IMG/VR virus record: IMGVR_UViG_3300046003_003791 | Span: 1 to 22,865 of that record | Direction: 5' to 3' (one strand) | From: a virus | DNA length: 22,865 nt | Shown here: positions 3,014-21,562 of the stretch, piece by piece | How positions within the stretch are numbered: the first letter of the stretch is position 1 | Layout of the letters: the number at the start of each line of letters is the position of its first letter | Position numbers and translations under genes: made by a program | Notes under the pieces: generated by a model | Told to the model about the DNA's origin: nothing | Seen by the model: only the letters and a program-made list of their open reading frames with translations | Database searches by the model: none

Positions 3014-3044
3014 AATACTCGGTAAGTAAAACACACCATATAGA

Positions 3045-3053
3045 ATAAATATG
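3045..3053 (-). promoter_or_regulatory. Late-promoter-like motif, copy a
   Basis: Coding-strand CATATTTAT lies between the stop of the 129-residue gene and the 106-residue gene, 31 bases before its ATG. It is nested in two inverted repeats: catat/atatg at 3037-3041 and 3049-3053, and gtaaaac/gttttac at 3026-3032 and 3065-3071. Confidence 0.55.
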
Positions 3054-3067
3054 AGGTTAGAGACGTT

Positions 3068-3457
3068 TTACACGACGTAAACACGACTCACATCCGTCTT
3101 TATTATCTTCAGTCCCTCTGGCTTTTTGATGAGCATCTTGTCACGATAAATCTCCCAATCTATTCGGTACGACTTATCAAGGACACCGTTGTTCAGATTC
3201 ATAATCAATTCATTTAGTGCATTGATTGTGTAGATCGTATTTGTTTCCTTTTTACGATGTACGAGTATCGAACCAGGCAAAAAGTCTTTGTGTGAATCCA
3301 AAAGAATGTTGTAGGACAATATGAGTTCATTTATCAGTTCAGTTGATTTCAAAAGGAAAACCTTCCCACTCAGAACTGTAAACTCACTTCTTATATCATC
3401 GAGTTTCTCATCTATTTCATACTTCTTTACAAAGGTACATACAAGTTGTGTCTTCAA
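3068..3457 (-). CDS. Conserved-looking phage protein of unknown function, TTG start
   Basis: A 129-residue protein. The segment HRKKETNTIYTINALNELI (about 68-86), followed by a hydrophilic DWEIYRDKMLIKK stretch, looks like a strongly constrained core of a kind I associate with environmental phage proteins, but I cannot name a function. The start is a TTG at 3457 that overlaps the TGA stop of the upstream 60-residue gene (TTGA). GAGAGG sits four bases before it, supporting this start and coupled translation. No signal peptide, membrane segment or known catalytic motif is visible. It forms a two-gene unit with the 60-residue gene behind late motif b. Confidence 0.75.
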   Translation of the reverse strand: MKTQLVCTFVKKYEIDEKLDDIRSEFTVLSGKVFLLKSTELINELILSYNILLDSHKDFLPGSILVHRKKETNTIYTINALNELIMNLNNGVLDKSYRIDWEIYRDKMLIKKPEGLKIIKTDVSRVYVV

Positions 3458-3636
3458 TAATCCTCTCTCATTTGTTCGCGAATATTTTCCATGACCTCCC
3501 GTACTACTGCCGTATTTTCAATTTTCGTATTCAATACCTGAAGAAGTTCGTATAAGTGATCTTCTCGTTTTAGGTCGATTATTCCTGACGGTATTCTCCG
3601 TGACCACTCAGTTACTATTGAATCAATGTCTAGCAT
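3454..3636 (-). CDS. Small protein of unknown function (60 aa)
   Basis: A 60-residue acidic, helical protein: a short N-terminal part ending WSRRIPSGIIDLKREDHLYELLQVL, then a charged tail. The ATG at 3636 is preceded by GGGGA. Its stop overlaps the TTG start of the next gene, indicating translational coupling. Late motif b lies 29 bases upstream. Function not recognised; the pairing with the next gene suggests the two work together. Confidence 0.7.
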   Translation of the reverse strand: MLDIDSIVTEWSRRIPSGIIDLKREDHLYELLQVLNTKIENTAVVREVMENIREQMREDY

Positions 3637-3663
3637 AGGTTTCCCCGTAATGATAAGTTATGT

Positions 3664-4878
3664 CTATAAATATGATTCCATGCTACCAAAATCATCACCG
3701 ATGGAACATTTGGTCGTCATACCATCCGTCTCAAAGACTCTTTGTAGAGATGAAATCAATCCCACCTCATCTGACGGAACATCAAATACAAAGGCATCGT
3801 AAAGGTACATACACAAAACGGTCTTCTTCCCATCCAATAGGGATAGAATAGTTTTCAACTTTCGCACATTGTATTCAGTTTCAAGAGATTGTAGGAAATA
3901 ATTGAACACCTTATTTGGTGTTGGGTCTTCTATCTCACGAAATCTCTTGTGGTAGAAGTATGATTCAATGTACCCACTTTCACTGTACTCTTGATATAGT
4001 TCATCAATCATTGCCTGAACTCTTTGGAAGAACGGGTGTTGTATGAATTGGTCTGTAATTGTTCCATAGATGTTTTGGAATACTCTCGACTTTACCTCAT
4101 CATATGGAATATCGAGACCCAACTCTTCCTTTATTTCGTCGTATGGGTGTTTAGTGAACTTATAGTCAAGAATCTTTGCCAGAAGTTTGATGTGGAAAGC
4201 ATCATAGTCAAACTGAACAATCTTTCCACCTTGAAACCGTGAGTGAATCTTATTACGTGTACCGTCATTTTTATTCAAGGCAGAGAAGTTGAAGTTATTC
4301 CACGAGTTACTTGGACGAGAAGTCGCTGTATACCACATATAGTTCTGTTTCTTCGTGTCCCCACTGACGGGTATTTCATTCTGTTCTATCTCCATCAGTC
4401 TATGGGTAAAGTCCTCACAGTAATCAATACATTCCTGTGAGATTCTGTCTGGCTTGTAGTATGGAAGGGTAAATAGAATGATATTCTCTGCGAATTCAAT
4501 CAGCTTCGAAAGGGGAATTATCTTGGTCAACTTCTTTGATGAATAAAACTTAGTGTGAAAATTTTCCATCACACTTGTGTAAAATTCTTGTATATTCACA
4601 TGGTCGTGAATGTAGTAGTGTAGGTATGAATTCAAGTCTATGCCGAAATCAAATCCATGATACAACATCCCCTTTTTGTTCAGGACAAGTGAATTTTGGT
4701 GTAACTTCAATGATTGTAATGTCTGTACCGACTCTAAAGCATCGGGATGTGTGAAATTGATAAAGGACGTAGTTCCATCTACAAAGTAGAGATACAAGCC
4801 AACCACTTCCGTTTCAGATGGATGTAAGTTGTTGTTTGAGAAGAATGGAACACAGATACACGGGGTATCCTGATACAT
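3664..4878 (-). CDS. Family A DNA polymerase-like protein, probable exonuclease remnant at N-terminus
   Basis: A 404-residue protein whose C-terminal half follows the DNA polymerase I palm and fingers. TSRPSN (186-191) matches the TGRLSS motif. Motif A is FDYDAFHIKLLA (223-234), with D224 as the first metal-binding aspartate. Motif B has K263, F267, Y271 and G272 in the exact Pol I spacing (K-x3-F-x3-YG). Motif C is YLYDAF (358-363), with D361 kept but His and Glu of the usual HDE replaced. The first 170 residues loosely follow the 3'-5' exonuclease fold (EVVGLYLYFVDGTTSFINF; NKKGMLYHGFDFGIDL) but lack the usual metal-binding acids. At 404 residues it is much shorter than Pol I. It sits downstream of tail genes, unusual for a polymerase. 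Family assignment is fairly sure from motif spacing; activity is not. Confidence 0.75.
   Translation of the reverse strand: MYQDTPCICVPFFSNNNLHPSETEVVGLYLYFVDGTTSFINFTHPDALESVQTLQSLKLHQNSLVLNKKGMLYHGFDFGIDLNSYLHYYIHDHVNIQEFYTSVMENFHTKFYSSKKLTKIIPLSKLIEFAENIILFTLPYYKPDRISQECIDYCEDFTHRLMEIEQNEIPVSGDTKKQNYMWYTATSRPSNSWNNFNFSALNKNDGTRNKIHSRFQGGKIVQFDYDAFHIKLLAKILDYKFTKHPYDEIKEELGLDIPYDEVKSRVFQNIYGTITDQFIQHPFFQRVQAMIDELYQEYSESGYIESYFYHKRFREIEDPTPNKVFNYFLQSLETEYNVRKLKTILSLLDGKKTVLCMYLYDAFVFDVPSDEVGLISSLQRVFETDGMTTKCSIGDDFGSMESYL
3666..3674 (-). promoter_or_regulatory. Late-promoter-like motif, copy b
   Basis: Coding-strand CATATTTAT overlaps the last codons and stop of the polymerase-like gene (…TCA TAT TTA TAG) and lies 29 bases before the 60-residue gene. 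Confidence 0.55.
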
Positions 4879-4883
4879 GGTGC

Positions 4884-5543
4884 CTACTTATCGTAAATGG
4901 AAAACTGAATGAAGTTCGTTACTTGTTTTGCCAATATAGGAAATTTCTGTGAGAACTTCAAAACAATCCTACGATTTGTATCTACCACACCTGGCTGTTT
5001 CAGGATATTGTTTTCCACAACGTCATACTCAGGGCCAATAAGTTTCCAAGGCATTTCAATCAACTCATATAGGTGTTGATTTATACCACCACCGTTTACA
5101 GTGTAAGTGGACGCCTGTTCTGCATCGATCTCAATAGGTAGACGAGTATGTACTTCGTTTCGTTTGATTAGAAAGTACCGAGTCATCAGACCGTTTTTCT
5201 TTTCGACTTCACTCGGTCTAATAGGATACTGAATTGGTGGTAAAAACTTGTGGAGTTTTATAGGCCCAACGATTTCTTCTTTCTGACCGTTGATACGTTT
5301 ATAGTGTGTCAAATCTACGTACCTAAAGTAGGAACGGTTTTTTCCAGGTCTGTATGGAATCAACTTACGTGACTTTGTGGGATGCCAGTCTGCCTCTGAA
5401 AACACCTCTCCCGTTGATTCATAGTAGTGATATGCGCCTATGTAGTTTTCCCATGTCTCCAAATCCATAAGGTAATACCCATTCGTAAATTGACTACGAA
5501 CGATTTCAGATTCGGGATAGTATATCTTTCTACGCTTTACCAT
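4884..5543 (-). CDS. Unknown phage protein (219 aa), possible tail-associated
   Basis: A 219-residue, Tyr- and Lys-rich protein. Its N-terminus (KIYYPESEIVRSQFTNGYYL), followed by a WENYIGAYHYYESTGEVFSEADW segment and KSRKLIPYRPG, resembles unassigned proteins of large environmental phages, but I cannot name a function. No membrane segment or catalytic motif is seen. ATG 5543 has AGGAAG upstream and begins one base after the hub-like gene's TGA, so translation is probably coupled. Its place directly behind the hub gene suggests a baseplate or fibre-attachment role; this is inference. The polymerase-like gene starts 5 bases downstream with only a weak ribosome-binding site (TAGG). Confidence 0.75.
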   Translation of the reverse strand: MVKRRKIYYPESEIVRSQFTNGYYLMDLETWENYIGAYHYYESTGEVFSEADWHPTKSRKLIPYRPGKNRSYFRYVDLTHYKRINGQKEEIVGPIKLHKFLPPIQYPIRPSEVEKKNGLMTRYFLIKRNEVHTRLPIEIDAEQASTYTVNGGGINQHLYELIEMPWKLIGPEYDVVENNILKQPGVVDTNRRIVLKFSQKFPILAKQVTNFIQFSIYDK

Positions 5544-5544
5544 A

Positions 5545-7917
5545 TCAACTTCCTGCGTTCAATCGTGATTTTGTTTCTAAGGTTGTTTCCCAAATACCAT
5601 TTTGAATCGTGTGGTTTATTTTGGTGATAACAAACACGAGACCTTCTTTGTTGTATGTGCGGGGAACAAGTGTTGTCTTTATGACATCACCAAATTTGAA
5701 TCCGTTTATTCCATCAATTGTCAATGATAGGTTGACGGGATATAGTGCCTTGTTCAACCAATGTGCCTGTGATGTATTTGAGGCCGCACGTTTATATGAC
5801 GCATACGCACCCTTCAAGTCTGTGTGGAACTTATCACTCGCACCTACATCTGCCAAGGCGTCTTTCGTACTCTGTATGATTGTCTTCGTTTTTGTCAACT
5901 CGTCTGAACTACCACCCTGTCCTGTTGCCACATCTATCTGTTGTGAACCACCTTTCTTACCACTACCACGAGCATCAACATAGGCAGCTGCAGCGAGTGG
6001 GCCGGGTGGTTTTGAACTTATGTTTACGGATTTCATAATAGGTGCAGCGATGTTTGCGGTAAACATATACGGTGTAACCGCATCAGTAACCGCTTTTGCT
6101 ATGTTTGCATCTTCAACACTGAGTATTGCAGTTCCATTTGATTGAAGCCCTGGCAACGTACCGGGGTCAATCAATCGGGTAGTCAACTGGTATGTTTCAC
6201 CTGAGGCGAAGTTTATCTTCTTTATCAAAGCATCCCAAAAGTTCGTGAGATTCTTATAGGTTATGTTTGTCTGATTGTCTTTCAGAAATTCACGATACGT
6301 TTCTATAACACACGTTGTTGAAACAAGTATGTTTCCAACGTTTACAGGGTTTCCAAGGAAACCATTACTACTAAATGGAACAAATCGTCCATATGCACCC
6401 ATCTTTGCGTCTGGAAAGAATACCTTATCTGGCATAGTAGATACCACATCCTCAAGATATTGAGTGATATTCCCGTCGATTTTTACTTCAGCGATACCAC
6501 CGACGGGACTTCCATTCTTGATAAGAAGACCATTCATAAACTTAGCTATAGAACCTAACTTCACAAAGTACGTTGGTTCGGCAATTGGTTTCGGTGGTGG
6601 GACATTTGACCAGGCGGGAGGATTTGCAGTTGCATCGGTAGATGCACTTTGATTTTTGAAAGTTTCCTCACGAATTCCACGTGCCTTTTTACCCCCAGCG
6701 TCAAATAGATTGTTGATGTCACTTGCCGTCCACTTCTTATCAGATGCCTCAAGTTCTGTCCTCTTCCTAGCAAGTTCTGCATCACGATACAACTCAACCC
6801 TCTTCGCTAAAAGTTCAGCAGACAATGTATAGAGTCCTGTATTTTTATCTGGTTCACCAGCACCCTTGATGATTTCTTTATCAACATCATTATTTGGATC
6901 CAATTTTGCCTGTTGACTTTGACCACTCTTCCTGTAATTATCCGCCTCCAAATTCTTTTGTACGTAGATATTTGCGATAGCATCTATCTCAGTATTTTGG
7001 GCTTCACGAGTTTCTTGTAACTTTTGATCTTGTTGTTTCTGTTGTTTCTGTGCATCTGTCAGTTTCTCGTCAGGCATATCACGAACCGACCGTGGTATAG
7101 CAACCAACCAATAAGTAAAACCATTACCACTGAATTTTGACATGGATTTAGTACCTGTATATTCAATAGCAGGCCCGTCTATTTGTGCCTGTGTGTTTTT
7201 GTCTCCACCGAGTCCGGCAACATCTTGTTCGAGAACACCAGCTAAATCACTGTTTGGTATAGGTCTATCTTGTGGGTCTTTTACATCGGAATCAGGATCG
7301 GGATTGTGTTGTTCACCAGAGAGACCAATTGCTATTGTTGCCTTTGAAACAAAGCTGACCTTTGCACTGATTGCCAAATCAGGTTGAACGGACCACTCGA
7401 AGTTGTAAATGATTCCCTGCATCTGTCCTCGATTTGCCTTTGAGTTTGAACGAACAGACCATCCCCATTTTGCAAGTATAACTTTTCCTGGTTTGAAGTA
7501 AGCACGTTCTATCTTCTCCATACTAAAACCACCGGCGGTTATGTTTGGATAGACAGTGAAGTCAAATGTTCCCTTTAGAAGAGAACCGATAGTTCCTTCG
7601 TTTGAAATAGTCAAGGACTGAAGTAGTGGATATTTTGGAACATTTCGTATTGGTTCATACAGAAGAAGCTTACCCTTTTCATCAGACATCAATTTGGAGT
7701 ATTGAGAACCGAGTGCAACAGAGTTTCCACCGTCTTCGGAGAAAATCTGTGCCCATGCAACTTTTCCATACGACCAAAACAACTTTGTTGGATCACCCGA
7801 TTCGGGTGTACGTACACGTGTACCATAGGCATTTGCCCTAAACGATAACTCAGATGAAACGGAACCATCAACTTGTTGATAAAATGGATTTACATATTTT
7901 CCACCTATAACCGGCAT
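5545..7917 (-). CDS. Baseplate hub-like protein (gp27/gpD type)
   Basis: A 790-residue protein. The N-terminal third is beta-rich and includes FDFTVYPNITAGGFS and AKWGWSVRS followed by QGIIYNFEWSVQPDLAISAKVSFVS, the style of barrel found in hubs of contractile tails. Residues about 290-440 are a long, charged, helical insertion (QKQQDQKLQETREAQ…ELLAKRVELYRDAELARKR). The last 70 residues have the hub-type closing barrel (NLSLTIDGINGFKFGDVI… VFVITKINHTIQNGIWETTLE). It would form the ring joining the tail tube to the spike. It follows the LysM protein directly, the order of P2 X-D and of other contractile injection systems. The AGGAGG ribosome-binding site is formed by the last two codons of the LysM gene. 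Hub assignment rests on context and fold-style reading; no spike gene is seen in the window. Confidence 0.65.
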   Translation of the reverse strand: MPVIGGKYVNPFYQQVDGSVSSELSFRANAYGTRVRTPESGDPTKLFWSYGKVAWAQIFSEDGGNSVALGSQYSKLMSDEKGKLLLYEPIRNVPKYPLLQSLTISNEGTIGSLLKGTFDFTVYPNITAGGFSMEKIERAYFKPGKVILAKWGWSVRSNSKANRGQMQGIIYNFEWSVQPDLAISAKVSFVSKATIAIGLSGEQHNPDPDSDVKDPQDRPIPNSDLAGVLEQDVAGLGGDKNTQAQIDGPAIEYTGTKSMSKFSGNGFTYWLVAIPRSVRDMPDEKLTDAQKQQKQQDQKLQETREAQNTEIDAIANIYVQKNLEADNYRKSGQSQQAKLDPNNDVDKEIIKGAGEPDKNTGLYTLSAELLAKRVELYRDAELARKRTELEASDKKWTASDINNLFDAGGKKARGIREETFKNQSASTDATANPPAWSNVPPPKPIAEPTYFVKLGSIAKFMNGLLIKNGSPVGGIAEVKIDGNITQYLEDVVSTMPDKVFFPDAKMGAYGRFVPFSSNGFLGNPVNVGNILVSTTCVIETYREFLKDNQTNITYKNLTNFWDALIKKINFASGETYQLTTRLIDPGTLPGLQSNGTAILSVEDANIAKAVTDAVTPYMFTANIAAPIMKSVNISSKPPGPLAAAAYVDARGSGKKGGSQQIDVATGQGGSSDELTKTKTIIQSTKDALADVGASDKFHTDLKGAYASYKRAASNTSQAHWLNKALYPVNLSLTIDGINGFKFGDVIKTTLVPRTYNKEGLVFVITKINHTIQNGIWETTLETKSRLNAGS

Positions 7918-7918
7918 T

Positions 7919-8260: not shown

Positions 8261-8278
8261 TATTACATCCTTCCGTTA

Positions 8279-11200
8279 TTAGTAACCGGGAACATTTGCA
8301 GTTTGATTCTTTTTCAAGTTGAATGTCTTTCTCATATAGTAAACAGCTGCCGCTTTACCAGCAGGAATTCCTTCGTAACCCTCCAATGCAGCTTTTCTGA
8401 GTGCTTCGAGGTGTGTTCTAAATGTTGCATCCTTTGGTTTTTTCGATGACCACAGCGCGTCATATGCTTTGTTTTCCTCACTACTTATAGCGACCCAAGT
8501 CGTCAAACCGGTTGGTAGTGGTGATGGTGGGATAACCCCGTCTTTTGGACGTGGTATCGGTGAATCCGTCTTACCATCCTTCTTATCCGTATTTGCAGGA
8601 GGTGTTTTACTTGTAGTCGAACTTGTACTTCCATTTTGACCAGCTTGTAGTAGTGCAACACCCGTCAAGTTTTCTCTTGCCGTGTTGGCCCGAACGATTG
8701 GTACACCCGGTATCGGTGTGTATGAACCACTCATCATTTGTTCAAGTGCAGTTGCCTGCGTCTTTGGTAAGGCACTTGGATTTACAAAATTACTCGTTGG
8801 TGTTGCCGCGTTTGGTTTTTCTGTGGCGGAACCACTTGTTTGCGTTCCATTCGACTTTTGAGGATCTGGTTCAGGGTCACTCGGGTCAGGAGAAACCGTG
8901 ATAGTTTGTATTGGTTTTGCCGCATATGGTTTACCATTGTCATATCCTGTGTAAATAACCGGAGTTCCCTTGTCCTCATACTCAACAAAGTAGTTGACAC
9001 GATTTGGTGAGTTGTGTGGAATAAGTCCCGTCTCAACATTGGTTCCGGTTGTTGTATCGTCGTATAGACTGTACATGACACCACGGAACTCTGGTCGGTA
9101 AACACCAACAGGTACGAATGAAACACTAACATCAATGTGTTTAGGTAATTGAAGAACGCCAGGCGAACTTAGTGCCTTTATAGTTGCGTCATTCAAGTTC
9201 ATATCTTCAGGTAACTTAGCGGTTTCCCAAGTTGTTTGTTGATTATCAAACGTATAGCTCAATGAAGAAATGTATCCCGGCATTTTACGATACAAGTGAC
9301 CTATGTTCAGACGAACCATTGGGCCTCTCATAAATCCGTTATCACGATATTCAGGTGCCGTCCATGACGCAAGATAATTCAATTTACGCCATGATGCACG
9401 CATCTCATCACGAGAACCAATGTGTACGGTAAAGTCAAACGATACCTCACGCTCATAACCTTGGTAAACGTAAAGTGGATCTGCACGACCCATGTACTTT
9501 ACTGAATTCCAAGATGGTTTATGGTTATCTGTGATACTACCGAATGTTGCTCGGAATACAATAATCTCAGCAGGACAGTTATCGTGTCCTTGTAACACAA
9601 GACTTGAGAAGTAAAATTCAATCAAGTCACGTGTACCATTCACACCACTTTCTGCCAAAGTTGTATTACCCAACTCGTATGCCAATCCAGTATTGATATT
9701 GAAGTTTGCCCTCTTGTAATCAATAATGTTTATTCTGTCACCACGGAAGTACTGTCCTTCTTTTTGAATAGGTACACCATAGTCTCTAAACTCTTTGTTT
9801 CCGTTTTGTTGTATGATTTCGGGGTTGTCAAACTTCGCATATCTAACACTACTAATGAACGGTTGATCTCGACGTACACCTGGTCTACCTTGGTCACCAA
9901 ATCCATAACGTTCTGAAAGATTACGAGTCCCAAATCTTGCTATGTTTGGGTTGGTTACAAAAGCACGACCCTGATCATCCGCTTGTGAGCCCGATGCAAA
10001 ATCAACTCCCACGTCCGCCCTAAAGTCATTGAAGTACTTGTTGTTCAATCTGTTGTTTCGACGTAGTTTATCATAGTTTGCAGTTCTGTACTGTTTTATC
10101 AAACTATCCTTGTCAACATTATCAGGATGAACTGAATTTGCAAGTAACGTTTCGGTCTTACCAAGATTGATGGAGGTTCGTCTTTCTGTTCTCGAGAATT
10201 GTGTATCGTGTCTCGGACTGTATGGGTTTACTCCACTGATGATGTTGTTCTGTTCCTGTTGTATGTTCGGACTACCAGCTTCTTGTGATACATCATTCAA
10301 TTCTTTCGGTCCACCCGGTAAAAGGTACGAAAGTGCCTTGAGTAAACCACCGACTCCATTTTCTTTTAGGTATGAACCGTAAGTTGTTGAATACGCATAA
10401 AAGGTATCACGTCTTGACTCAGGTGTATACGTTGGTTCACGTTGTGCTCGTAAATCTGGAGCAGTAGTGTAGTGAACGAGGTACGGGTGGGTCGATCTGT
10501 GAATACGTGTACCACCTATACCTAAGAACGAGCTTGGGCCACCAAAGTTTGAAGAGATACGTACTATCTCAGAGTTTCCACTTATATCCTGTGGTATAGA
10601 TGGTGGTGGAGTCGGTTGCTGACCTTCCTGGTCGGTAGGTGTTGGTGTTTGTGATGGTGTAATTGAAGGCGTGAATGAGTTAGGTAATAATTCCTTCATC
10701 AAACCAATCAAACGATTGTAATTTGTTTTGTTATCTGTGGTTGGTTTTTCTAATTGACTAAACTGTCCCTCGGCAGTTCCTTGTGCAGTTAGTTGTAATT
10801 CACGTGCAACAGTTGCCTTTTCATACATATTCAGTCTACCACTGTCAAGTAGGTCGAGAGTACTTATACCATGTCTCGGTATATGGAAACCAACCCTTGC
10901 GGTTGCAACGTTTGCAATTACCGATAGTGGATTGAATGTCAGTGTTGTTGATACCCCCGCAATTTGACTCAACTCGTTAGATGGATTTATATCCACAACC
11001 GGGTTCATAAATTGAAGTCCAACTTGTCTTACATTCCAAGCAAGTCCTTTTATAGAAGTCAGGAATTTTCCAATGCGTTGTGAATCAAAGATTACACGAT
11101 CAACCATAGTGGCTATACCAGCACGTGCAACACCATCATCAACACCACGGAAAATTCCACCCCAACGTTCAGGTTCCAACCCACCTTGAATACCACGGAG

Positions 11201-14200
11201 TACAAACGGTTGATTCCAAACAAAGTCATAATTGAAAGAATCATCACGGAGATTGAACTTGGAATACTGTGCATCCAACGGTGATGGCGAACGTCTTGTT
11301 ATCGCCCACTTTGTTAGATAACCCCTTTGTTCTGTGTTGTCTTTTACACCACGTTCGTATTTGTTCTCATATGAACCAGCGATTCCACCTGTAACTATAT
11401 CGGGTACTTGATTCTCAAGTGTTGCTGAAAGTGTACCATTTGACCACGGACGTTTGCCTAACGATAGTGGTGCATACTTCTCTTGATTGATTGTCTTTAT
11501 ACTACGTCTCTGTGCCCTTGCAGACTCTATATCAAATCTACGGGATGAGTCTTCGTCAAAACGAAGAACAGGATCGATAATAGGGTAGAGTGTACTTTCA
11601 CCACCGGTCATTCCAACCATGAATCCTGTGCGTTCAGACGGTGTATATCCAAAAAATGTAGTGAACGGTACGTTTTTAGGTATCGCGAGATTTGATGAAC
11701 CGGCAAATGAGAAACGAGAAAACTGTTGTGATAACTTTGTCTCAGTCGTTGAAAACAAACGAGTGAATCCTTCAACTGACTCTGGATTCTCAGCTGTTAT
11801 TCCTAAGTAGTTTACTTCAGGTGCCTCTTGACGAGTTCCCGTCCAACCAAAGGTACTATCTCGTTGTGCAAGTTTTGATTCCACTTTGGATGTTATATCC
11901 ACACCACCGTTTTTCAAGTCTTCATTTACTTTAGCGTTACCCGGTATACCGAACAAAGATTCACCAACATATTCTGATGTTAGTGACTGTGGAAATGAAG
12001 TAAATCCTGTTGCAGAAAGATCATTGAAGAAATTCGCTGTGTTTGCAGATTTTGGATCGCCCTTGAATGTGAATTGACTTGAGTCTTCCACATATTTGGT
12101 TTCATTCAAAGCAACCTTCAAATCAAAACCACTACCATTCGTGTTTCCAAGAAAATCAACGGGTGTTGGTGTAGAACCTTGGAATGTAAATGTACTAGAA
12201 TCCTTCACATACTTTGTTTCAAGTAAAGGTGTCTTGTTTACAAACCCACTTCCGTTTGTGTCTGCAAAGAAGTTGATTTCCGTAGGCAGACCACCTTTGA
12301 ATGTGTACTCCGATATGTCCTTTACATACTCGGAACTCAACTTCTGTGCAAATGTGGTAAATCCCTTACCTTGTGTATCCGTGAAAAAGTTAGTCTTTGG
12401 TGCAGACCTATTTGCACCTTTGAATGTAAACTCGGAACCATCTTTTACATACTTGGTTACCATTCGTTGTGGGAATTTTTCAAATCCCTTTGTTGCAAAC
12501 TTCTTGGTCAGGTCAACGTAGTCAGTCTCAGGTGCAGACTGTGCACTTCCATCGAAAACAAATCTCGAGGCATCACGAACATATCGTGTTACCATAGACG
12601 GTGCTATTTTCTCAAATCCCTTTGTTGTACTACTACGTATCAGGTCGAACTGGTCAACCTCAGGTGCACTCTGTTTGTTACCATCCCAATCATAGATAGA
12701 AGAATTTGGTATGTACTTTGAATCATAGAGTTGTGCAAACCTATGGAATCCTGTTGAAGTGCTCTGACCATTCAAGTCAAAGTAATTCACTTCAGGTGCT
12801 TCTTGTTTATTACCGTCCCAATCAAATCGTGAAGACTGATGGATATACTTTGTATCGTATTGTTGAGCAAATCTATGAAATCCCGTTGTAGTGTTTGTAC
12901 CATTCAAATCAAAGTAGTTTACCTCGGGAGAATTATTCTTATCACCAGCAAAGGTAAACACAGATGAATCAGACACATACTTGGTATCAAGTGCCTGTGC
13001 AAATCTATGAAATCCTGAAGTCGTGTTTCTTCCATTCAAATCGAAGTAATTGACCTCAGGTGACTCGGTTGGATTTCCTTTGAACGTAAATAGCGATGAG
13101 TCGGGAACATACTTTGAATCCAAAGATTGTGGAAATCTGTGGAATCCTGTAGTAGTGTGAGTGGCACTCACATCGAAGTAATTTACTTCAGGTGCATTTT
13201 GATTATTACCATCCCAATCATAAGTTGAGGACTCGTGTACAAACTTTGAATCATAGAGTTGTGCAAATCTGTGGAATCCGATGGTAGTATTCGTACCATT
13301 CAAATCAAAGTAGTTTACCTCCGGTGAGGATTGTCTATCGCCACCCCAAGTAAATGCAGAGGCATCACTGACATACTTTGTATCATACAACTGTGGAAAT
13401 GTTTGAAATCCAGCATTTGTGTACTGACCTGTTACATCAAAGTAGTTTACGGCTGGCGCAGATTGTCCAACCCCATCAAAGTCATAGATTGATGAGTCAG
13501 GTATGTATCTTGAATCATATATCTGAGCAAAACGGTGGAAACCATTTGAATTCTGACCGGTGACATCAAAGTAGTCCACTTCTGGTGCCTGACCACTCTT
13601 GCCCTTCCAAACAAATTCGGATGCATCTTGTTTATACGCAGTTTCATATTGAATCACAAATGTCTTGAATCCGTCAGATGCGTATTGTTTAGTTACATCA
13701 AAGTAATCTACACCGGTTGGTCTTGAAAATCCAAACTTAGAACTTTCAGTATTGTAATCAGTCTCACCCACACTAGCAAACTTTTTGAACCCCACACCGT
13801 TTGTATCGGTTATGAAGTTTGTTGTTGGTGCGGCTGTGCTGTTACCACTCCACCCAAAAACAGAATCACCTGTGTATTCAGTTGAACCTTGTTGTGCCCT
13901 TACAACAAAACCTCTTGCATTTGTGTCCGGGAAGAAGTTTACTTGTTGAGTACCAACTATTGCAAGTGAAGTACCTTCGGTATTTTCGTGTCTACCACCT
14001 GGAATTGTCTTTATTACCGTATCCACGTTCAACGATGACCTGTCAGTTGTTTGTACGGATTCCAAGTCATAACGTTCAGTATCAGGTTCTTGTGTTGGCT
14101 CGATATTTGCCAATCTCGAAGTTGTTACGAATCGAACTGGTTTTTCATCACGATTCAGAAAACTCTCGTCACCCGCTAAATGAAACTCCCCGTTCTGAAC

Positions 14201-15091
14201 ACGAAAGACTTTTGTGTTTGGATCTACAACAAGACCTTGCTTTATTGTCTCTGTTATGATGTTTGGTGTCTGTGCCTCGGGTACGAGTATCAATAGTTCA
14301 GACTTCTGAAGTGCAAGATTCGGGTCAATCACGTTATTGAGTGGTGAAAACAAATCCTTATTGATTACAACCGATTGTCCACTTCTATCCGTTGACTGTT
14401 CGGGACGTGTAATTGGTATGTTTGGGTTTGTAACGTTACCACTCTCAGTTCTTATTTCCGTTCCACCGATGACAGTACGAGCCGGTGACAGATTCGGTGA
14501 TTGTGCACCTCTTTCAATTTGTTGTTCTGGTCTTGTGATTTCTATTTCAGGAATGACGATGTTGTTTGTTGTATCATTCTCAACACGCACAACATCAATT
14601 GGTGAGTTCAAGTTATTTGTCCCAACATTTGTCTTTGTAACAATGATGTTAGATTTATCTAATCGACTAACAAACACTTCCTGACGTATATCGTCAAAAC
14701 GTGATTGCACTTTATCCAATGATAGAGCATTCACATTTCGTAGACTAAATTCCTTATTGATATTCGAAAGACGTGACACGGAGTTTAGTGTCATATCTTC
14801 CATTGCAACTTTGATGATGTCATCAAGACGGGTTGAGTTCAGTTTCGTCTCAACCGGAGTAGTGTTGAATTTCTCGACCTGTGTTCTACGCGAAGACAAC
14901 TTGTCCTCTATTGGAGTTTGGTCTGGTCTTGCAATCTGTTGTTGCATAGACTTCAGTTTCTCAGTTATCGGTTGGAACGTTGCAAAGTTTTTGTTACTCG
15001 TGGCTTTAGATGCCTCGGGTGTACTCTTAGGTTCCCTTGAAACTTCAGAACGAAATTTTGATAGGTCGGATTGTAAATCTACTAAAGCCAT
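8279..15091 (-). CDS. Giant tail/baseplate protein with about 17 tandem repeats (2270 aa)
   Basis: A 2270-residue protein. Residues 1-384: hydrophilic, with a duplicated ITRPEQ…DR/ER…GQS element. Residues about 385-1132: about 17 tandem units of 39-46 residues; the core unit is 44 residues, of the form NYFDLNGTNTTxGFHRFAQ followed by YDxKYxxDSSxFTFxG and SPEV. Residues about 1480-1510: Pro/Thr-rich linker. Residues about 1830-2010: a conserved tail domain with GRADPLYVYQGYEREVSFDF, then SRDEMRASWRKLNYLASWTAPEY, a signature I associate with tube-like baseplate proteins (comparable to T4 gp48/gp54). A low-complexity region and a final helical segment follow. It lies between tape measure and LysM, where tube-initiator proteins belong. 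ATG 15091 has AGAGGA and late motif c 21 bases upstream. Location in the baseplate is well supported; the repeats' role is unknown. Confidence 0.75.
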   Translation of the reverse strand: MALVDLQSDLSKFRSEVSREPKSTPEASKATSNKNFATFQPITEKLKSMQQQIARPDQTPIEDKLSSRRTQVEKFNTTPVETKLNSTRLDDIIKVAMEDMTLNSVSRLSNINKEFSLRNVNALSLDKVQSRFDDIRQEVFVSRLDKSNIIVTKTNVGTNNLNSPIDVVRVENDTTNNIVIPEIEITRPEQQIERGAQSPNLSPARTVIGGTEIRTESGNVTNPNIPITRPEQSTDRSGQSVVINKDLFSPLNNVIDPNLALQKSELLILVPEAQTPNIITETIKQGLVVDPNTKVFRVQNGEFHLAGDESFLNRDEKPVRFVTTSRLANIEPTQEPDTERYDLESVQTTDRSSLNVDTVIKTIPGGRHENTEGTSLAIVGTQQVNFFPDTNARGFVVRAQQGSTEYTGDSVFGWSGNSTAAPTTNFITDTNGVGFKKFASVGETDYNTESSKFGFSRPTGVDYFDVTKQYASDGFKTFVIQYETAYKQDASEFVWKGKSGQAPEVDYFDVTGQNSNGFHRFAQIYDSRYIPDSSIYDFDGVGQSAPAVNYFDVTGQYTNAGFQTFPQLYDTKYVSDASAFTWGGDRQSSPEVNYFDLNGTNTTIGFHRFAQLYDSKFVHESSTYDWDGNNQNAPEVNYFDVSATHTTTGFHRFPQSLDSKYVPDSSLFTFKGNPTESPEVNYFDLNGRNTTSGFHRFAQALDTKYVSDSSVFTFAGDKNNSPEVNYFDLNGTNTTTGFHRFAQQYDTKYIHQSSRFDWDGNKQEAPEVNYFDLNGQSTSTGFHRFAQLYDSKYIPNSSIYDWDGNKQSAPEVDQFDLIRSSTTKGFEKIAPSMVTRYVRDASRFVFDGSAQSAPETDYVDLTKKFATKGFEKFPQRMVTKYVKDGSEFTFKGANRSAPKTNFFTDTQGKGFTTFAQKLSSEYVKDISEYTFKGGLPTEINFFADTNGSGFVNKTPLLETKYVKDSSTFTFQGSTPTPVDFLGNTNGSGFDLKVALNETKYVEDSSQFTFKGDPKSANTANFFNDLSATGFTSFPQSLTSEYVGESLFGIPGNAKVNEDLKNGGVDITSKVESKLAQRDSTFGWTGTRQEAPEVNYLGITAENPESVEGFTRLFSTTETKLSQQFSRFSFAGSSNLAIPKNVPFTTFFGYTPSERTGFMVGMTGGESTLYPIIDPVLRFDEDSSRRFDIESARAQRRSIKTINQEKYAPLSLGKRPWSNGTLSATLENQVPDIVTGGIAGSYENKYERGVKDNTEQRGYLTKWAITRRSPSPLDAQYSKFNLRDDSFNYDFVWNQPFVLRGIQGGLEPERWGGIFRGVDDGVARAGIATMVDRVIFDSQRIGKFLTSIKGLAWNVRQVGLQFMNPVVDINPSNELSQIAGVSTTLTFNPLSVIANVATARVGFHIPRHGISTLDLLDSGRLNMYEKATVARELQLTAQGTAEGQFSQLEKPTTDNKTNYNRLIGLMKELLPNSFTPSITPSQTPTPTDQEGQQPTPPPSIPQDISGNSEIVRISSNFGGPSSFLGIGGTRIHRSTHPYLVHYTTAPDLRAQREPTYTPESRRDTFYAYSTTYGSYLKENGVGGLLKALSYLLPGGPKELNDVSQEAGSPNIQQEQNNIISGVNPYSPRHDTQFSRTERRTSINLGKTETLLANSVHPDNVDKDSLIKQYRTANYDKLRRNNRLNNKYFNDFRADVGVDFASGSQADDQGRAFVTNPNIARFGTRNLSERYGFGDQGRPGVRRDQPFISSVRYAKFDNPEIIQQNGNKEFRDYGVPIQKEGQYFRGDRINIIDYKRANFNINTGLAYELGNTTLAESGVNGTRDLIEFYFSSLVLQGHDNCPAEIIVFRATFGSITDNHKPSWNSVKYMGRADPLYVYQGYEREVSFDFTVHIGSRDEMRASWRKLNYLASWTAPEYRDNGFMRGPMVRLNIGHLYRKMPGYISSLSYTFDNQQTTWETAKLPEDMNLNDATIKALSSPGVLQLPKHIDVSVSFVPVGVYRPEFRGVMYSLYDDTTTGTNVETGLIPHNSPNRVNYFVEYEDKGTPVIYTGYDNGKPYAAKPIQTITVSPDPSDPEPDPQKSNGTQTSGSATEKPNAATPTSNFVNPSALPKTQATALEQMMSGSYTPIPGVPIVRANTARENLTGVALLQAGQNGSTSSTTSKTPPANTDKKDGKTDSPIPRPKDGVIPPSPLPTGLTTWVAISSEENKAYDALWSSKKPKDATFRTHLEALRKAALEGYEGIPAGKAAAVYYMRKTFNLKKNQTANVPGY
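11696..13939 (-). repeat. Tandem repeat array of about 132 bp units within the giant tail gene
   Basis: About 17 in-frame units encode residues 385-1132. Units in the middle (about 12650-13450) are exactly 132 bp and similar at DNA level: the stretch beginning gtaccattcaaatcaaagta occurs at 12897 and again at 13293, exactly three units apart. Outer units are shorter and more diverged, typically with a DTNGxGF core in place of NGTNTTxGF. Confidence 0.9.
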
Positions 15092-15112
15092 AGTCCTCTA
15101 CTGTTGTTTCAT

Positions 15113-15121
15113 ATAAATATG
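15113..15121 (-). promoter_or_regulatory. Late-promoter-like motif, copy c
   Basis: Coding-strand CATATTTAT (in CATATTTATATG, a 5-bp dyad) lies 21 bases before the giant tail gene and 15 bases after the tape measure stop. Confidence 0.55.
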
Positions 15122-15136
15122 GAATGGTGAGGATTA

Positions 15137-18100: not shown

Positions 18101-18934
18101 CTTATCAAGTTCAAGTCGTCGTTCCAATGACTCAAGCTCTTCTTTTGACATATCACTCTTGCCACTTTCAAATTGGCTACGCTTGTATGCTAAATCGGCC
18201 TGGCGTTCTTCAATCATTTCTTGTTGTCTTGAAAGGTCGAGTTTTTTGTATTCACCCTTTGACGCTTCTCCAGCTGATTTCGTTATATCACGTTGAACCG
18301 AAAGAATACTCTTTGCCGTCTCTTCATGATCTTCATATGCATCCATGAAAGATTCTGACACAGAGCCCTGCCTCTGTATCAGTTGTATGAGACCCTTGGC
18401 CTCAGCGTTTTGTTGCCTCATGTATATTAGACTAATGTCTTGTGATTTTGCCCATACTTGAGATGCACCAGTCAATTTCTCTTGAGAACTCGTTGCAAGA
18501 ATGGTGGACTTTGCTCGGTCATCCGCCATTTTTGTCATATCGTCTTGTTGGCGTTTTCCAATTTTCAACAAATCTTGTGCAAGATTCTTTTGGTCTAAAC
18601 CAATCTTGTTCCGTTCTTCTTGAAGCTTATTTAGTTTTTCTTCACGTTTATACCACTCTTCATGTTCTTCATCTATTTCTTTCTGAAGCTTTTTGGCTAA
18701 TTCAGTTTCACCTTTTCCAATAGTCTTCAACTTATTGAGTCTTTCAGTTTTTTTCGTGATAGACTCTACTAGCTTCTCCGTTTCAAGAAACTCATCATTC
18801 GTCTCTTTGACTATCTGCTTGAATTTTTCCGCACCCTTTTGTTTTTCCGTGAATTTGGACGCACGTTCTTCCCTCACATTTGGTGTGGGGTTTCCTTGAG
18901 ATTGGTTTGTTTGTTGGTCTTTTCTTTTAGCCAT
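15137..18934 (-). CDS. Tail tape measure protein
   Basis: A 1265-residue protein with the standard tape measure build. It would set tail length inside the tube and be ejected on infection. Residues 1-320 are charged coiled coil. A hydrophobic stretch at about 360-395 (MAPMFMKALAIGGLLSIVSF) precedes a helical core (about 400-700). A second hydrophobic segment at about 740 (WTVAGLLGLIATVYIG) is followed by Ala/Asp/Lys-rich helices. Several Ala/Leu/Gly-rich, membrane-like helices lie at about 900-1055. The C-terminus (VEKKLDTLINVMTQAAN…) is a short helix that could bind the hub. Length and position between chaperone genes and baseplate genes match. The stop of the upstream 77-residue gene is 8 bases before its ATG; AAGGGA lies upstream. 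Confidence 0.9.
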   Translation of the reverse strand: MAKRKDQQTNQSQGNPTPNVREERASKFTEKQKGAEKFKQIVKETNDEFLETEKLVESITKKTERLNKLKTIGKGETELAKKLQKEIDEEHEEWYKREEKLNKLQEERNKIGLDQKNLAQDLLKIGKRQQDDMTKMADDRAKSTILATSSQEKLTGASQVWAKSQDISLIYMRQQNAEAKGLIQLIQRQGSVSESFMDAYEDHEETAKSILSVQRDITKSAGEASKGEYKKLDLSRQQEMIEERQADLAYKRSQFESGKSDMSKEELESLERRLELDKKVVSSLELQNKALSDASDSAKKVLGTFDRIMELDIKGAIREGFSFDKIQSEVKEKVGATFVNIAAEMKGEKGLVGGLKAAGAGMKGLLNMAPMFMKALAIGGLLSIVSFIAESFGKVDEEVSKLGQDLGISKHEAIELHHAATDVAGEMGIVGVNAAEVAKGVQTASEIMGGLDIASKFAAGDEKAKQLVKDTTVLSEKFGLSSDEIKNINDLATMSGKSMGQLTAEATTLNKGLMTSKESLKLLSKVPKEVAVGFKGGTQELIKAAAKAKLLGMELKQVQDIGMGMLDIESSLEKEMEARVLTGKNLNLDAARAYALQGDVASLQDELLRQAGSLKEFQAMGPLQQKSMADAMGMTVEQMTTMLTNAEKLKELGIDDAKMKKLQEMNAEELNKELAKGGSQAYKDYVRNLAKEKESEETKKKLADAMTKIQEKLAKMITPLIEMADKFLSVVDSAKLLEPILWTVAGLLGLIATVYIGKKIKDGIGLVKDGFGAIKDGASKLFDYIKGPGSEVMDELADKAGGIAEKVGDKAEDAVSSLTEKAQEAATEKVSEAGEDVASNLADKAKDSVTDKATGLLSDKADDLVSDGADALSSTEAASPKKGGGISEFFEKLDAKKMLQGAAALLVVAAALWVTAKALQEFATVNIEDMGKAGLALLGLTVVLFAISKMKGSLIEGGIALIAMAGALYILGGALQMFENIKLETLGIAAIALVGLTAAVLGLGAIISSGVGGALFAAGIVGFIALGAALVVLGAGLLVVASAIALGSVALQNITKDIEKLTAIDDEKLEGVADKLGILGEAILNFGAGGLMSGIGAGLSAMFGAKSPVEQIMDIMAKLDPSKLDGVSLAIRSLADAFGYFADQIGKMKDFDTDKIDTIIEKMEEVKAAQTGGGGIFGGMFSTQSQTAQPVGIGLTQQGGGKEGAGNPMANVEKKLDTLINVMTQAANTPTVIKFGERVIDEIKTQIDFKSAYNVKVDNTYGRTA

Positions 18935-18942
18935 TTACCGAC

Positions 18943-19176
18943 TCATCCCTTGTAACGGAATTTATTCTCTCTTTCTTCTGCATCTTTACAACGTTCAGGA
19001 TACTTCTTGCAGTACTCTGTCAAGTGGTTATCTATCTCAGCGTATGTATCATTCATACGTTTTACCGTAGCCATGAGTTTTTGATCGCCTTTGAACGCAC
19101 GTTCGAGTGCAGCGATTTTACGTCTTGAAATAAAGTCGATAATCATATCAAGTAGACTTTGTTTGACCGTTTCCAT
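18943..19176 (-). CDS. Small helical protein before the tape measure (77 aa)
   Basis: A 77-residue, highly charged helical protein with two cysteines in EYCKKYPERCK. It is not recognised. ATG 19176 is preceded by GGAGGA. It is first in the unit with the tape measure gene, 34 bases after late motif d. Position alone suggests a tail assembly helper. Confidence 0.7.
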   Translation of the reverse strand: METVKQSLLDMIIDFISRRKIAALERAFKGDQKLMATVKRMNDTYAEIDNHLTEYCKKYPERCKDAEERENKFRYKG

Positions 19177-19195
19177 TCATTCCTCCATAAAAAGT

Positions 19196-19227
19196 AGGGT
19201 TTACATACCTATAAATATGTAAACCCT
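19196..19227 (-). terminator. Terminator hairpin containing late motif d
   Basis: Perfect 12-bp arms (AGGGTTTACATA at 19196-19207 and its complement at 19216-19227) enclose an 8-base loop. On the minus strand the hairpin is followed by ACTTTTTA. It lies directly after the gp51-like gene and would end that unit. The late-promoter motif occupies part of the arm and loop. Confidence 0.7.
19211..19219 (-). promoter_or_regulatory. Late-promoter-like motif, copy d
   Basis: Coding-strand CATATTTAT lies 34 bases before the 77-residue gene and is embedded in a terminator-like hairpin. Confidence 0.55.
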
Positions 19228-19232
19228 GAAGA

Positions 19233-19478
19233 TTATCGTTTTGTTGGTGGAGAAAACGTTGGTACAGTTCGTTTTGCCTTACTGTATTCAGAACTCTCCG
19301 CTTTGTTCTTTGTTTCTATTGCCTTCGTCACCTGTTGTATGTAAAAACGTCTCAGGTGAATTGGTAGTGAATAAACATCATCCCATATGAATCCACCTTT
19401 TCCATAATAACACAGTGAAAAGATTTCCTCATGCAATCCTAATTTATACTCAGTTCCCAGGCCAAAAAAATGAAACAT
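19233..19478 (-). CDS. gp51-like tail assembly chaperone partner (81 aa)
   Basis: An 81-residue protein with YYGKGGFIWDDVYSLPIHLRRFYI at about 24-47. The FxWxDVYxLPxxLRRFY pattern is typical of the small second partner of tail assembly chaperone pairs. In T4, genes 26 and 51 are adjacent and have been proposed as the tail assembly chaperones. The frame overlaps the end of the gp26-like gene by 29 bases, in the +1 frame. Its ATG at 19478 has no well-placed ribosome-binding site (AAGGAG is 16 bases away), and a T7 run in the overlap could let ribosomes shift from one frame to the other. It may thus be made partly or only as a fusion to the upstream protein. Assignment is from context and motif. 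Confidence 0.65.
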   Translation of the reverse strand: MFHFFGLGTEYKLGLHEEIFSLCYYGKGGFIWDDVYSLPIHLRRFYIQQVTKAIETKNKAESSEYSKAKRTVPTFSPPTKR

Positions 19479-20319
19479 CCATCGGAATGTCCATCTCCTT
19501 TACCTCACCCGTTGCATCTGAAACAAATGTAAACGTCATATCGAGGTCGGGAGATATTTCCTTCATATATGAACGTAAGGCACGTGAATCGAGTGCAAAC
19601 AGTTCGTTATCTACGAAGTTGTTTATTGCCGCTCGACCCATTTCACCATCCACGGCTATGATAACGTTCTTCAACCGTGTTGTCAATTCATTATCAATAC
19701 CTGTGCGTACTTTTGTTTTATTCATACCCTTGATTTCTGTTTGGATTTGTTTTTCCAAACCATGTGTCATTAGACGGAAGGTGACAACCCGCTTTGACTG
19801 CGGCAACTCAAAATCAAATTCATTCTGTCTGGACTCTAATAGAGAATAATCCACCTCCTTGTGCTCTATTTGAGTAAGGTCTATTGTAACTTTTTGTTTT
19901 GTTCCCGGCGAAAACGGGTCGTCAACTTCTACCGTGTAATCCTTACCATATCCTAAAATTCTTGCAGCAACCATCACAGCATTCTTATCACCGATGTGTA
20001 GGTCTGAGTAGTTCATTGGAGTAACGATTAGTGACTCAAACAACTTATCCAAGACCACACCCTGTTTGATAAGGTTCTGTGAGGTTAGAATATCCTCTTC
20101 CTTTGCAGTCATATACTTCATCTCAATCACACCTTCTCCAAGTGGATGTCCTTCTGGATAAAGTAATCCTCTTGATGGGAGTGGTATGATTTCTGTTGGG
20201 AAGTTCGACTTCTTGACGGACGTTTGCTTGAAATCCGCCATCAAATTGGCTTTCAATTCTTCGTCAGACATCTCCATAGCTGTCTGTGGGAGATTGTATC
20301 CCGTTGGGACTTTTGACAT
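19450..20319 (-). CDS. gp26-like baseplate/tail assembly chaperone protein
   Basis: A 289-residue protein resembling the T4 gp26 family. After a 40-residue polar N-terminus comes FPTEIIPLPSRGLLYP (40-55), then VIEMKYMTAKEEDILTS (64-80), the family's hallmark opening. Residues 100-150 hold a helical segment and a DPFSPGTKQKVTIDL strand pair. T4 gp26 was long listed as a baseplate hub assembly protein and has been proposed, with gp51, as the tail assembly chaperone that guards the tape measure. This version is longer than T4 gp26 (208 residues). ATG 20319 has AGGAT upstream. The gene's last codons include TTT TTT T, where the +1 frame opens into the gp51-like gene. Confidence 0.75.
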   Translation of the reverse strand: MSKVPTGYNLPQTAMEMSDEELKANLMADFKQTSVKKSNFPTEIIPLPSRGLLYPEGHPLGEGVIEMKYMTAKEEDILTSQNLIKQGVVLDKLFESLIVTPMNYSDLHIGDKNAVMVAARILGYGKDYTVEVDDPFSPGTKQKVTIDLTQIEHKEVDYSLLESRQNEFDFELPQSKRVVTFRLMTHGLEKQIQTEIKGMNKTKVRTGIDNELTTRLKNVIIAVDGEMGRAAINNFVDNELFALDSRALRSYMKEISPDLDMTFTFVSDATGEVKEMDIPMDVSFFWPGN

Positions 20320-20366
20320 AACTAAATCCTGTTACTAATGAAACAATGTTATTGTAATTCGAGCTA

Positions 20367-20933
20367 TTACTGAATCTTTTTTGCAAGTGTTTTCAGATCA
20401 CTTACATCCCTATTGGCACCCTTGAATTTAGTCTTCAGTCCAGCGAATAGAGCTTTGATCTTATCCTTTATAGTACCAAACAAAGTTCCTTCACCAACAC
20501 GTTGAACACCAAGTGAAGCACTTACCTTTGTGATAGTTTTTGTGCTCTCGAGTGTCTCATTGAGAATGTCTTTTATCTTCTGATTCACCTTCGTTAGTGC
20601 CAAATCAAATGCCTGCTTGTAACTGGTATTCGTTCTTTCATAAGCACTTCGCTTTATGGTCAATAAGAACTTCTTCGTCTCAATTGCCTTTTGTCCAAGT
20701 GCCTGTACTTCTTCCATAAGAGGGAGTAGTTCATCATTTAGATCGTTATATTCAGTTTTGAGTTTATTGAGGTGAGCCGTAACTTGATCTATTTCACCTG
20801 AAAGTTCTGCATATCGTTCTATCTTTTCTTCGATTTGCTCAAAAGGAAGCACTGCTTCATGAAGTTTCTTACGAATACCTCTTAGTGTTTTTTCAGACTC
20901 TTCTAAGAGTTCTTTTCTACTTGATAGTTGCAT
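20367..20933 (-). CDS. Coiled-coil protein with LSSR…LLEE N-terminal motif (188 aa)
   Basis: A 188-residue, almost wholly helical protein of unknown function. The N-terminus MQLSSRKELLEESEKTL closely matches that of the 155-residue gene at 21580-22047. Residues about 20-110 are coiled coil. A Gly-containing break (GVQRVGEGTLFG) separates it from a basic C-terminal helix (KDKIKALFAGLKTKFKG). ATG 20933 has GAGGT upstream and late motif e 39 bases upstream. The gp26-like gene follows after 47 bases and probably shares its transcript. The shared N-terminus suggests a targeting leader; see findings. Confidence 0.75.
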   Translation of the reverse strand: MQLSSRKELLEESEKTLRGIRKKLHEAVLPFEQIEEKIERYAELSGEIDQVTAHLNKLKTEYNDLNDELLPLMEEVQALGQKAIETKKFLLTIKRSAYERTNTSYKQAFDLALTKVNQKIKDILNETLESTKTITKVSASLGVQRVGEGTLFGTIKDKIKALFAGLKTKFKGANRDVSDLKTLAKKIQ

Positions 20934-20972
20934 TGATTCTACCTCAGTTGAATGATACCGTTACCTATAGTA

Positions 20973-20981
20973 ATAAATATG
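20973..20981 (-). promoter_or_regulatory. Late-promoter-like motif, copy e
   Basis: Coding-strand CATATTTAT lies 39 bases before the 188-residue gene; its first bases overlap the downstream arm of a hairpin. Confidence 0.55.
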
Positions 20982-21011
20982 GGCACGTCGAGAAAAACCC
21001 AACGTACCCAT
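20979..21011 (-). terminator. Terminator-like hairpin after the tail tube gene
   Basis: A 10-bp stem (20979-20988 with 21002-21011, one G-T pair) closes a 13-base loop and is followed on the minus strand by ATTTATTAC. The large loop and the broken T tract make it a weaker terminator than those at 1225 and 22071. It abuts late motif e. Confidence 0.5.
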
Positions 21012-21031
21012 AAAAATGTTGACTTCAAAGA

Positions 21032-21520
21032 TTAGTATTGAAGTATAGCGTAATCATAAGCAAGGGTGAGTGAAATTTCAACGAAGTTATCCGTTGACCA
21101 ATCCATATCACCAAATGTTGTTGCTGTAATGAAAGCACCCTTCAGAGTCCATTCTTCGACCTTATCACCAACCGGGCCGAGAACGTTGAAAGTAATGTCC
21201 TTCTTGTAGAAGTCCGAATAACCATCACGACCTGTTACAGACTCGTGTGATAGACGAACCCACTCCATAACTGCTTGTGCAGCAGATGGAACAATCGGGT
21301 CATATAGCTTGATAGTCACGTCCTGCCATTCACCCTTACCCTTTACTTTACGCTTGACGTTGATGTGGTCAAGTGTGATTGGGTTGAAGTTGATATTTGG
21401 TCTGCTCGCACCCTTGATAAGGTAAGCAGGAACGCCTTCAATGTACATGATAAACCTATTCGCAAGTTTAGGTTCATATGGGGTAAAAAATACTTCGGTA
21501 GGATCGAGTAATTCAGCCAT
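21032..21520 (-). CDS. Tail tube protein (gp19-like)
   Basis: A 162-residue protein, the same length class as T4 gp19 (163). It should polymerise into the inner tube through which DNA passes. Seen: an opening PYEPKLANRFIMYIEGVPAYLIKGASRP, a central VTIKLYDPIVPSAAQAVMEWVR, and a closing WTLKGAFITATTFGDMDWS followed by EISLTLAYDYAIL. These match the layout of T4-type tube proteins, including the closing strand pair. ATG 21520 has GGAGA upstream and late motif f 33 bases before it. The gene has its own likely promoter and a terminator-like hairpin after it, consistent with very high expression. The sheath gene lies just upstream, as in T4, but with an extra gene between the two. Confidence 0.9.
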   Translation of the reverse strand: MAELLDPTEVFFTPYEPKLANRFIMYIEGVPAYLIKGASRPNINFNPITLDHINVKRKVKGKGEWQDVTIKLYDPIVPSAAQAVMEWVRLSHESVTGRDGYSDFYKKDITFNVLGPVGDKVEEWTLKGAFITATTFGDMDWSTDNFVEISLTLAYDYAILQY

Positions 21521-21553
21521 TTATTTCTCCAAGTTTGAAAATCTCTCTTTCAC

Positions 21554-21562
21554 ATAAATATG
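21554..21562 (-). promoter_or_regulatory. Late-promoter-like motif, copy f
   Basis: Coding-strand CATATTTAT lies 33 bases before the tail tube gene, between it and the 155-residue gene. Confidence 0.55.

Follow-up and report, generated by a model that had tools for sequence, protein, structure and literature searches.

What is the function of a nine-base word that recurs six times in a fragment of a phage genome, each time shortly ahead of a gene? The fragment, which we call the window, is the whole stretch of DNA that was analysed, an entire virus record of 22,865 bases. The first-pass annotation of this DNA saw in the word a phage-specific late promoter, inverted relative to that of phage T4, or alternatively a set of sites that fire antisense. 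We conclude, with a probability of about 0.78, that the word is a clade-specific late promoter box that is read in the sense direction, probably by a gp55-like sigma factor. The clade is a large, widespread and mostly undescribed one of T4-like myoviruses; its named relatives are Microcystis phage Mel-JY01, Flavobacterium phage immuto and Rhodothermus phage RM378.

The box in the window

The window has six copies of ATAAATATG, starting at positions 3045, 3666, 15113, 19211, 20973 and 21554, all on the + strand and none on the − strand. Dinucleotide shuffles give an expectation of 0.25 copies, and none of 100 shuffles reaches six. The plausible genes of the window are all on the − strand, so that the coding-strand reading of the box is CATATTTAT. 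The candidate sites and the two annotated genes downstream of them are:

21554..21562, − strand: candidate late box CATATTTAT, 33 nt 5′ of the tail tube gene 21032-21520
21032..21520, − strand: tail tube protein gene (T4 gp19-like; phrog_4542, E 6.9e-27)
20973..20981, − strand: candidate late box CATATTTAT, 39 nt 5′ of ORF 20367-20933; abuts the 3′ arm of a terminator-like stem, 21012-20978
19211..19219, − strand: candidate late box CATATTTAT, within a terminator-like hairpin, 34 nt 5′ of ORF 18943-19176
15113..15121, − strand: candidate late box CATATTTAT, 21 nt 5′ of the 2270-aa structural gene 8279-15091
8279..15091, − strand: gene for a 2270-aa tail or baseplate-region protein, downstream of box 15113; its neighbours are a LysM-like baseplate wedge and the tape measure
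3666..3674, − strand: candidate late box CATATTTAT, 29 nt 5′ of ORF 3454-3636; overlaps the stop codon of ORF 3664-4878
3045..3053, − strand: candidate late box CATATTTAT, 31-34 nt 5′ of ORF 2693-3034

The six + strand coordinates given by the first-pass annotation are exact, and it was right for the window that no copy lies within the body of a gene, the copy at 3666 only touching the last codons and the stop of ORF 3664-4878. Coding sequence makes up about 95.5% of the window, and the core TATTTAT (ATAAATA on the + strand) is confined to the six sites on either strand. In the order of the copies, the distances from box to start codon are 34, 29, 21, 34, 39 and 33 nt (for the first copy 34 nt if the GTG start is used, and 31 nt if the in-frame ATG is), which bears out the placement 21-39 nt ahead of a minus-strand start that had been claimed for every copy. 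The 9-mer as a motif survives in part: the core is real, but the leading C is not, as relatives have T, C or G at that position. What the relatives conserve is ATATTTAT with A or T as the next base.

The copy at 3666 has counterparts in named relatives, a box immediately past the stop of the orthologous gene in Mel-JY01 (51624) and one 9 nt past it in immuto (1336). The copy at 3045 is the least certain of the six, because both of the orthologues that we found lack a box.

The phage and its relatives

Among the window proteins there are matches to the tail sheath, a T4-like tail tube, a LysM-like baseplate wedge, the tape measure, a single-strand binding protein and UvsX. The closest named relatives of the tail tube protein are those of Mel-JY01 (87%), immuto (54%) and RM378 (41%), and at least 600 stretches of the virus collection encode a relative. 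Of nine tail tube relatives found in bacterial genome bins, seven are in Flavobacteriales, Winogradskyella, Sphingobacteriales, Flavobacteriaceae or unnamed bacteria, and one is in Alphaproteobacteria; phage contigs are binned unreliably, so these bin names do not fix the host of the window phage.

Other features of the window are worth recording. The 2270-aa protein has many PEVNYFDLNGTNTTTGFHRFAQ-type repeats. Adjoining the single-strand binding protein gene, at 1235-1852, is the gene for a predicted lipoprotein, whose signal ends in GCSN, and a terminator-like stem at 1222-1250 closes that gene.

Conservation of the box in related loci

In a set of 80 related loci, no 8-mer is more enriched upstream of starts than ATATTTAT (297 genes vs. 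31.9 expected), which is also the most strand-biased of the AT-rich 8-mers, with 425 sense and 57 antisense copies. By placement, 303 copies clade-wide are just 5′ of starts, 59 are within genes in sense, and 43 are within genes in antisense. Gene bodies across the clade thus hold the box at background level, not at zero. The first-pass annotation had named one outcome as telling against a promoter, a box just as frequent within genes or far from starts; two complete genomes and the 80 loci do not show this outcome.

The same sites recur at orthologous genes. Ahead of the tail tube gene, ATATTTAT or TATTTATA is found at most 90 nt upstream in 67 of 76 loci (most of the others have CTATTTATT). 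In three further tallies, which each count Mel-JY01 twice, 80 of 83 tail tube orthologues have [AC]TATTTAT at most 100 nt upstream; a box is upstream of the hub gene in 23 of 25 orthologues, and upstream of the giant gene in 9 of 11 orthologous loci, where protein identity is just 30-52% and the flanking DNA has diverged. The two loci of the giant gene that have no box are one Mel-JY01 sequence in duplicate.

In the more distant RM378, TATTTAA is found ahead of 40 genes vs. 2.7 expected, and the full box is TTATTTAA. There, TTATTTAA is followed by a run of A and is often just 6-9 nt 5′ of the start codon, which suggests that RM378 leaders are very short. In the literature searched, no paper presents TATTTATA or ATATTTAT as the late promoter of a phage; the 2014 RM378 genome paper may do so.

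Anatomy of the aligned sites

An alignment of 379 non-redundant box sites shows a single strong box, [A]TATTTAT[A/T]. Upstream of it there are two A/T peaks, at offset −15 (93%, z 10) and at offset −6 (83%), and no −35 element: in these 379 sites we see only AT-rich spots. Past the box, bases 8-13 are AT-rich in the sense direction, and offset 12 is a purine in 86% of sites and C in 1%. The spacing from box to start codon is loose in relatives, 0-65 nt.

If offset 12 is the transcription start, the box would span about −12 to −5, and the two A/T peaks would fall at −18 and −27. Flavobacterium johnsoniae promoters have AT-rich spots at −18 and −28 (PMC6847099). We propose that the functional element is ATATTTAT[A/T] in that position, that it is aided by AT-rich contacts near −18 and −27, and that it is read in sense by the host RNA polymerase together with a phage sigma factor. 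Transcription from the purine ~5 nt past the box would give leaders of ~10-35 nt. It is the sequence that points to initiation at the box, and to its being late.

Genes behind the box and a class of host-type promoters

Which genes carry the box? With the limits of the "late" region drawn by us from annotation or gene content and synteny, the box is ahead of 16 of 80 late-region genes in Mel-JY01 vs. 5 of 156 elsewhere (p 4e-5, Fisher test), and ahead of 23 of 69 in immuto vs. 14 of 163 elsewhere (p 8e-6, Fisher test). Some immuto boxes do stand before non-structural genes, those 14 of 163. In the genome G007, boxes are spread across 5-104 kb, and none is found in 104-141 kb.

The early and replication genes of Mel-JY01 have instead a host-type arrangement, TTG-N20-TAnnTTTG, with 28 sites at spacing 20, while each of the remaining spacings between 12 and 27 has 3-17. 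A strict search of immuto for TTG-N17-21-TAnnTTTG returns no site; its early promoters carry TATATTTAG instead, and at ~25-77 kb there are 15 near-identical ones of the form TTGC-...-TATATTTAG, with fixed spacing. Both forms resemble the Bacteroidota promoter described in PMC6847099. The window itself has a site of the two-box, host type:

1172..1200, − strand: site resembling a host-type promoter with two boxes, TTGACT-N17-TATATT, upstream of the gene for the ssDNA-binding protein (346-1101), which has no late box

The Mel-JY01 orthologue of the ssDNA-binding protein gene likewise has a host-type site upstream, TTG-N20-TATATTTG. We suggest that genes outside the late set would be read from such two-box promoters.

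As a side observation, the recorded host of Mel-JY01 (PP395634), Microcystis elabens, may be wrong, because its early promoters are of Bacteroidota type and the bins of tail tube relatives are mostly Bacteroidota. On the other hand, Mel-JY01 leaders look Shine-Dalgarno-like, and Bacteroidota are reported to lack such leaders.

Hairpins at the box

A hairpin is found upstream of the box in 88 of 322 sites, compared to 9-15 in shuffles. Two of the window sites are of interest here:

19196..19227, − strand: terminator-like hairpin, 14 pairs followed by a T run; encloses box 19211; fold −19.6 kcal/mol, z −4.75
20978..21012, − strand: terminator-like hairpin that ends in box 20973; fold −23.1 kcal/mol, z −4.98

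The hairpin at 19211 is kept by compensatory changes in 10 sequences, where 5 of 11 pairs are changed on both sides. A box within a hairpin is seen at the corresponding position, ahead of the tape measure region, in the window and in the loci L007, L008, L009, L010, L011, L016, L019, L020 and L088. Such a hairpin would form in RNA that arrives from upstream, and would not form in RNA begun at the box. There is a parallel in T4: the leader of gene e has a late promoter in the 5′ arm of a hairpin, and the late RNA lacks that arm (PMC3014915). In both cases a late box lies within a hairpin, but the one at 19211 is terminator-like, with a T run after it, rather than a demonstrated block to translation.

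A candidate late sigma factor

The first-pass annotation had advised looking for a gp55-like sigma gene elsewhere in the genome, and in complete relatives we do find a previously unannotated gene with a predicted sigma region 2. Searching the relatives with the T4 late sigma family (phrog_234) returned a single weak match, immuto gp118 (78174-78872), which led to this sigma-like gene. Its orthologue in Mel-JY01 is 158764-159534, RM378 has it too (E 2e-10), and the virus collection contains at least 500 relatives of the gp118 family. These were found with an alignment as query; single Mel-JY01 proteins used as queries in two scans of the virus collection returned no relatives.

Sequence and structure comparisons both lean towards a sigma factor. 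By profile, 22 of 34 family members match Pfam Sigma70_r2 (PF04542; best E 8.5e-5), in a tally where the member displayed in full falls under Pfam's cut-off, and 9 of 24 match the phrog_234 late sigma (best 1.7e-4). Against T4 gp55 itself the alignment is collinear but weak (hhalign E 0.015 over 139 columns). In the predicted fold, residues ~6-116 align to sigma region 2 (sigmaE 2map, 92 residues, rmsd 2.8) with Z 8.4, in the range of 8-9 where the comparison tool warns about helical folds. Most Foldseek matches of the model are sigma factors, with weak E-values (best 0.42), and a sequence search of the PDB with the sigma profile gave no match.

In 32 of 34 loci there is a box 3′ of the sigma-like gene, and in none of the 34 is there one 5′ of it; the gene comes immediately ahead of a late transcription unit and has no box itself. 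The one link that pairs the box with this protein is co-occurrence, which suggests, as the likely reader of the box, a gp55-like factor of ~230 aa that has a sigma region 2 and whose gene would lie elsewhere in the genome. Of 12 relatives reached through the tail tube, two have both box and sigma-like gene, the rest being mostly fragments. The window, a fragment too, has no sigma-like gene, and neither do G001 and G002, the nearest large contigs, which also lack most of the segment that carries the gene in Mel-JY01.

Other candidates were considered and set aside. Mel-JY01 ORF 157744-158427, picked by gene order, is a Clp protease, and a search of the relatives with phrog_12791 gave no sigma. 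For the C-terminal half of the sigma-like protein we make no claim of a region 4 or gp33 domain: modelled alone, it has no sigma match, and its best matches are weak and mixed, TFIIB among them. Two further occurrences may be noted. RM378 also has a second, ordinary sigma-70-like protein (128329-128928), and a 484-kb uncultured jumbo phage (LR756508) has a tail tube relative as well as a relative of the gp55-like sigma.

Alternative explanations

Could the host do without any phage sigma factor? The primary sigma of the host might read the box simply as a variant form of TAnnTTTG, the −7 element of Bacteroidota. An A and a TTT are common to the two elements, the AT-rich spots at −18/−27 match those of F. 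johnsoniae, and host-type promoters are present in the same genomes. We still find this unlikely. The near-invariant host T-12 is not kept at the matching position (33% T), the invariant host G is replaced by a constant A that is followed by an invariant T, and the late boxes lack the −33 TTG that the early promoters of Mel-JY01 and immuto have. Moreover, the two classes of promoter serve different gene sets. The box might also act in the RNA, as a processing site or as an enhancer of translation in the leader, rather than as a DNA promoter. The box does lie in the leader zone ahead of starts, often behind terminator-like stems, and one site is within a conserved hairpin; against this, the distance to the start codon is loose while the AT-rich spots keep a fixed distance upstream of the box, and the box marks mainly one class of genes and co-occurs with a sigma gene. 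We regard an RNA element as quite improbable.

The antisense firing that the first-pass annotation offered as an alternative would make the sites literal TATAAATA-like promoters of the T4 type on the opposite strand, which reads ATAAATAT, near to TATAAATA. The anatomy is one-sided, and in sense, which argues against it: a purine at offset 12 and AT-richness at 8-13 on the sense side, AT spots and terminator-like stems preceding the box. The start codon also lies on the sense side, antisense RNA would re-enter the preceding gene, and TTATTTAA, the box of RM378, is no inversion of the T4 one. We give antisense firing next to no credence. A phage-specific late promoter with a non-T4 box, read in sense, as had been favoured at first, is what is supported by the enrichment, the conserved orthologous sites, the late-gene specificity, the one-sided anatomy and the gp55-like sigma gene of the complete relatives.

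Is the box then a T4 box turned around? The inversion is only apparent. The T4 sequence TATAAATA is nearly palindromic, and its reverse complement, TATTTATA, is TATAAATA with two central A changed to T. Since the two differ at these two central bases only, no inversion is needed, and the TTATTTAA of RM378, as a further direct variant, favours the same reading. A direct variant box is the simpler description, and accounts for both placement and anatomy.

Relation to known late promoters

T4 late promoters have TATAAATA and are served by gp55 with gp33 and gp45 (PMC2988020); in our T4 control, TATAAATA is 24-28 nt ahead of most late genes having it. Like the sites described here, they consist of one TATA-like box of 8 bp, roughly a turn of the helix upstream of the start (here a presumed one), with no −35 and an AT-rich stretch downstream, and they too stand ahead of structural genes in a genome with a gp55-like sigma. 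The T4 consensus, however, is not what we see in this clade, where sites are ATATTTAT[A/T] or TATTTATA-like, with two central bases different, and the sigma is longer than T4 gp55 (~230 vs. 185 aa), with an extra C-terminal helical domain. Among other T4-like phages, Aeh1 has a late box with a/gC at −13/−12, and the boxes of KVP40, 44RR and S-PM2 are highly similar to that of T4 (PMC2988020). There too one late box varies by lineage, but those boxes alter the first two positions or none, whereas here the central AA becomes TT and RM378 has TTATTTAA. The Bacteroidota primary-sigma promoter, −33 TTTG and −7 TAnnTTTG (PMC6847099), differs in that the late box has no −33 element, does not keep the host T-12 and G, and serves another gene set.

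By profile search we found no relatives of gp33 or gp45 in Mel-JY01, immuto, RM378 and G007, with T4 as positive control, and no clamp loader of the T4 type (gp44) in immuto and RM378. One may speculate that a single protein, with sigma region 2 and a new C-terminal domain, covers the roles of both T4 gp55 and gp33 in a clamp-independent way, and that its box has drifted towards the Bacteroidota −7 element. We hold this as a tentative idea, somewhat doubtful as it stands. It would have the T4-type sliding clamp missing in immuto and RM378, and ATATTT would fit the host TAnnTTTG just as T4 TATAAATA resembles the host TATAAT.

Implications

Such a clamp-independent system, if true, would be relevant to a question asked in PMC2988020: why has a single-protein late sigma not been found? 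Given that no T4-type clamp loader was found in them, immuto and RM378 are natural comparison systems for the coupling of late transcription to replication. For T4-like phages in general, the late box appears to vary by lineage rather than being fixed. And we have a usable late-promoter signature, together with a candidate sigma factor, for environmental T4-like phages that form a very abundant group and whose genes are mostly unannotated; with that signature late genes may become recognisable from sequence alone.
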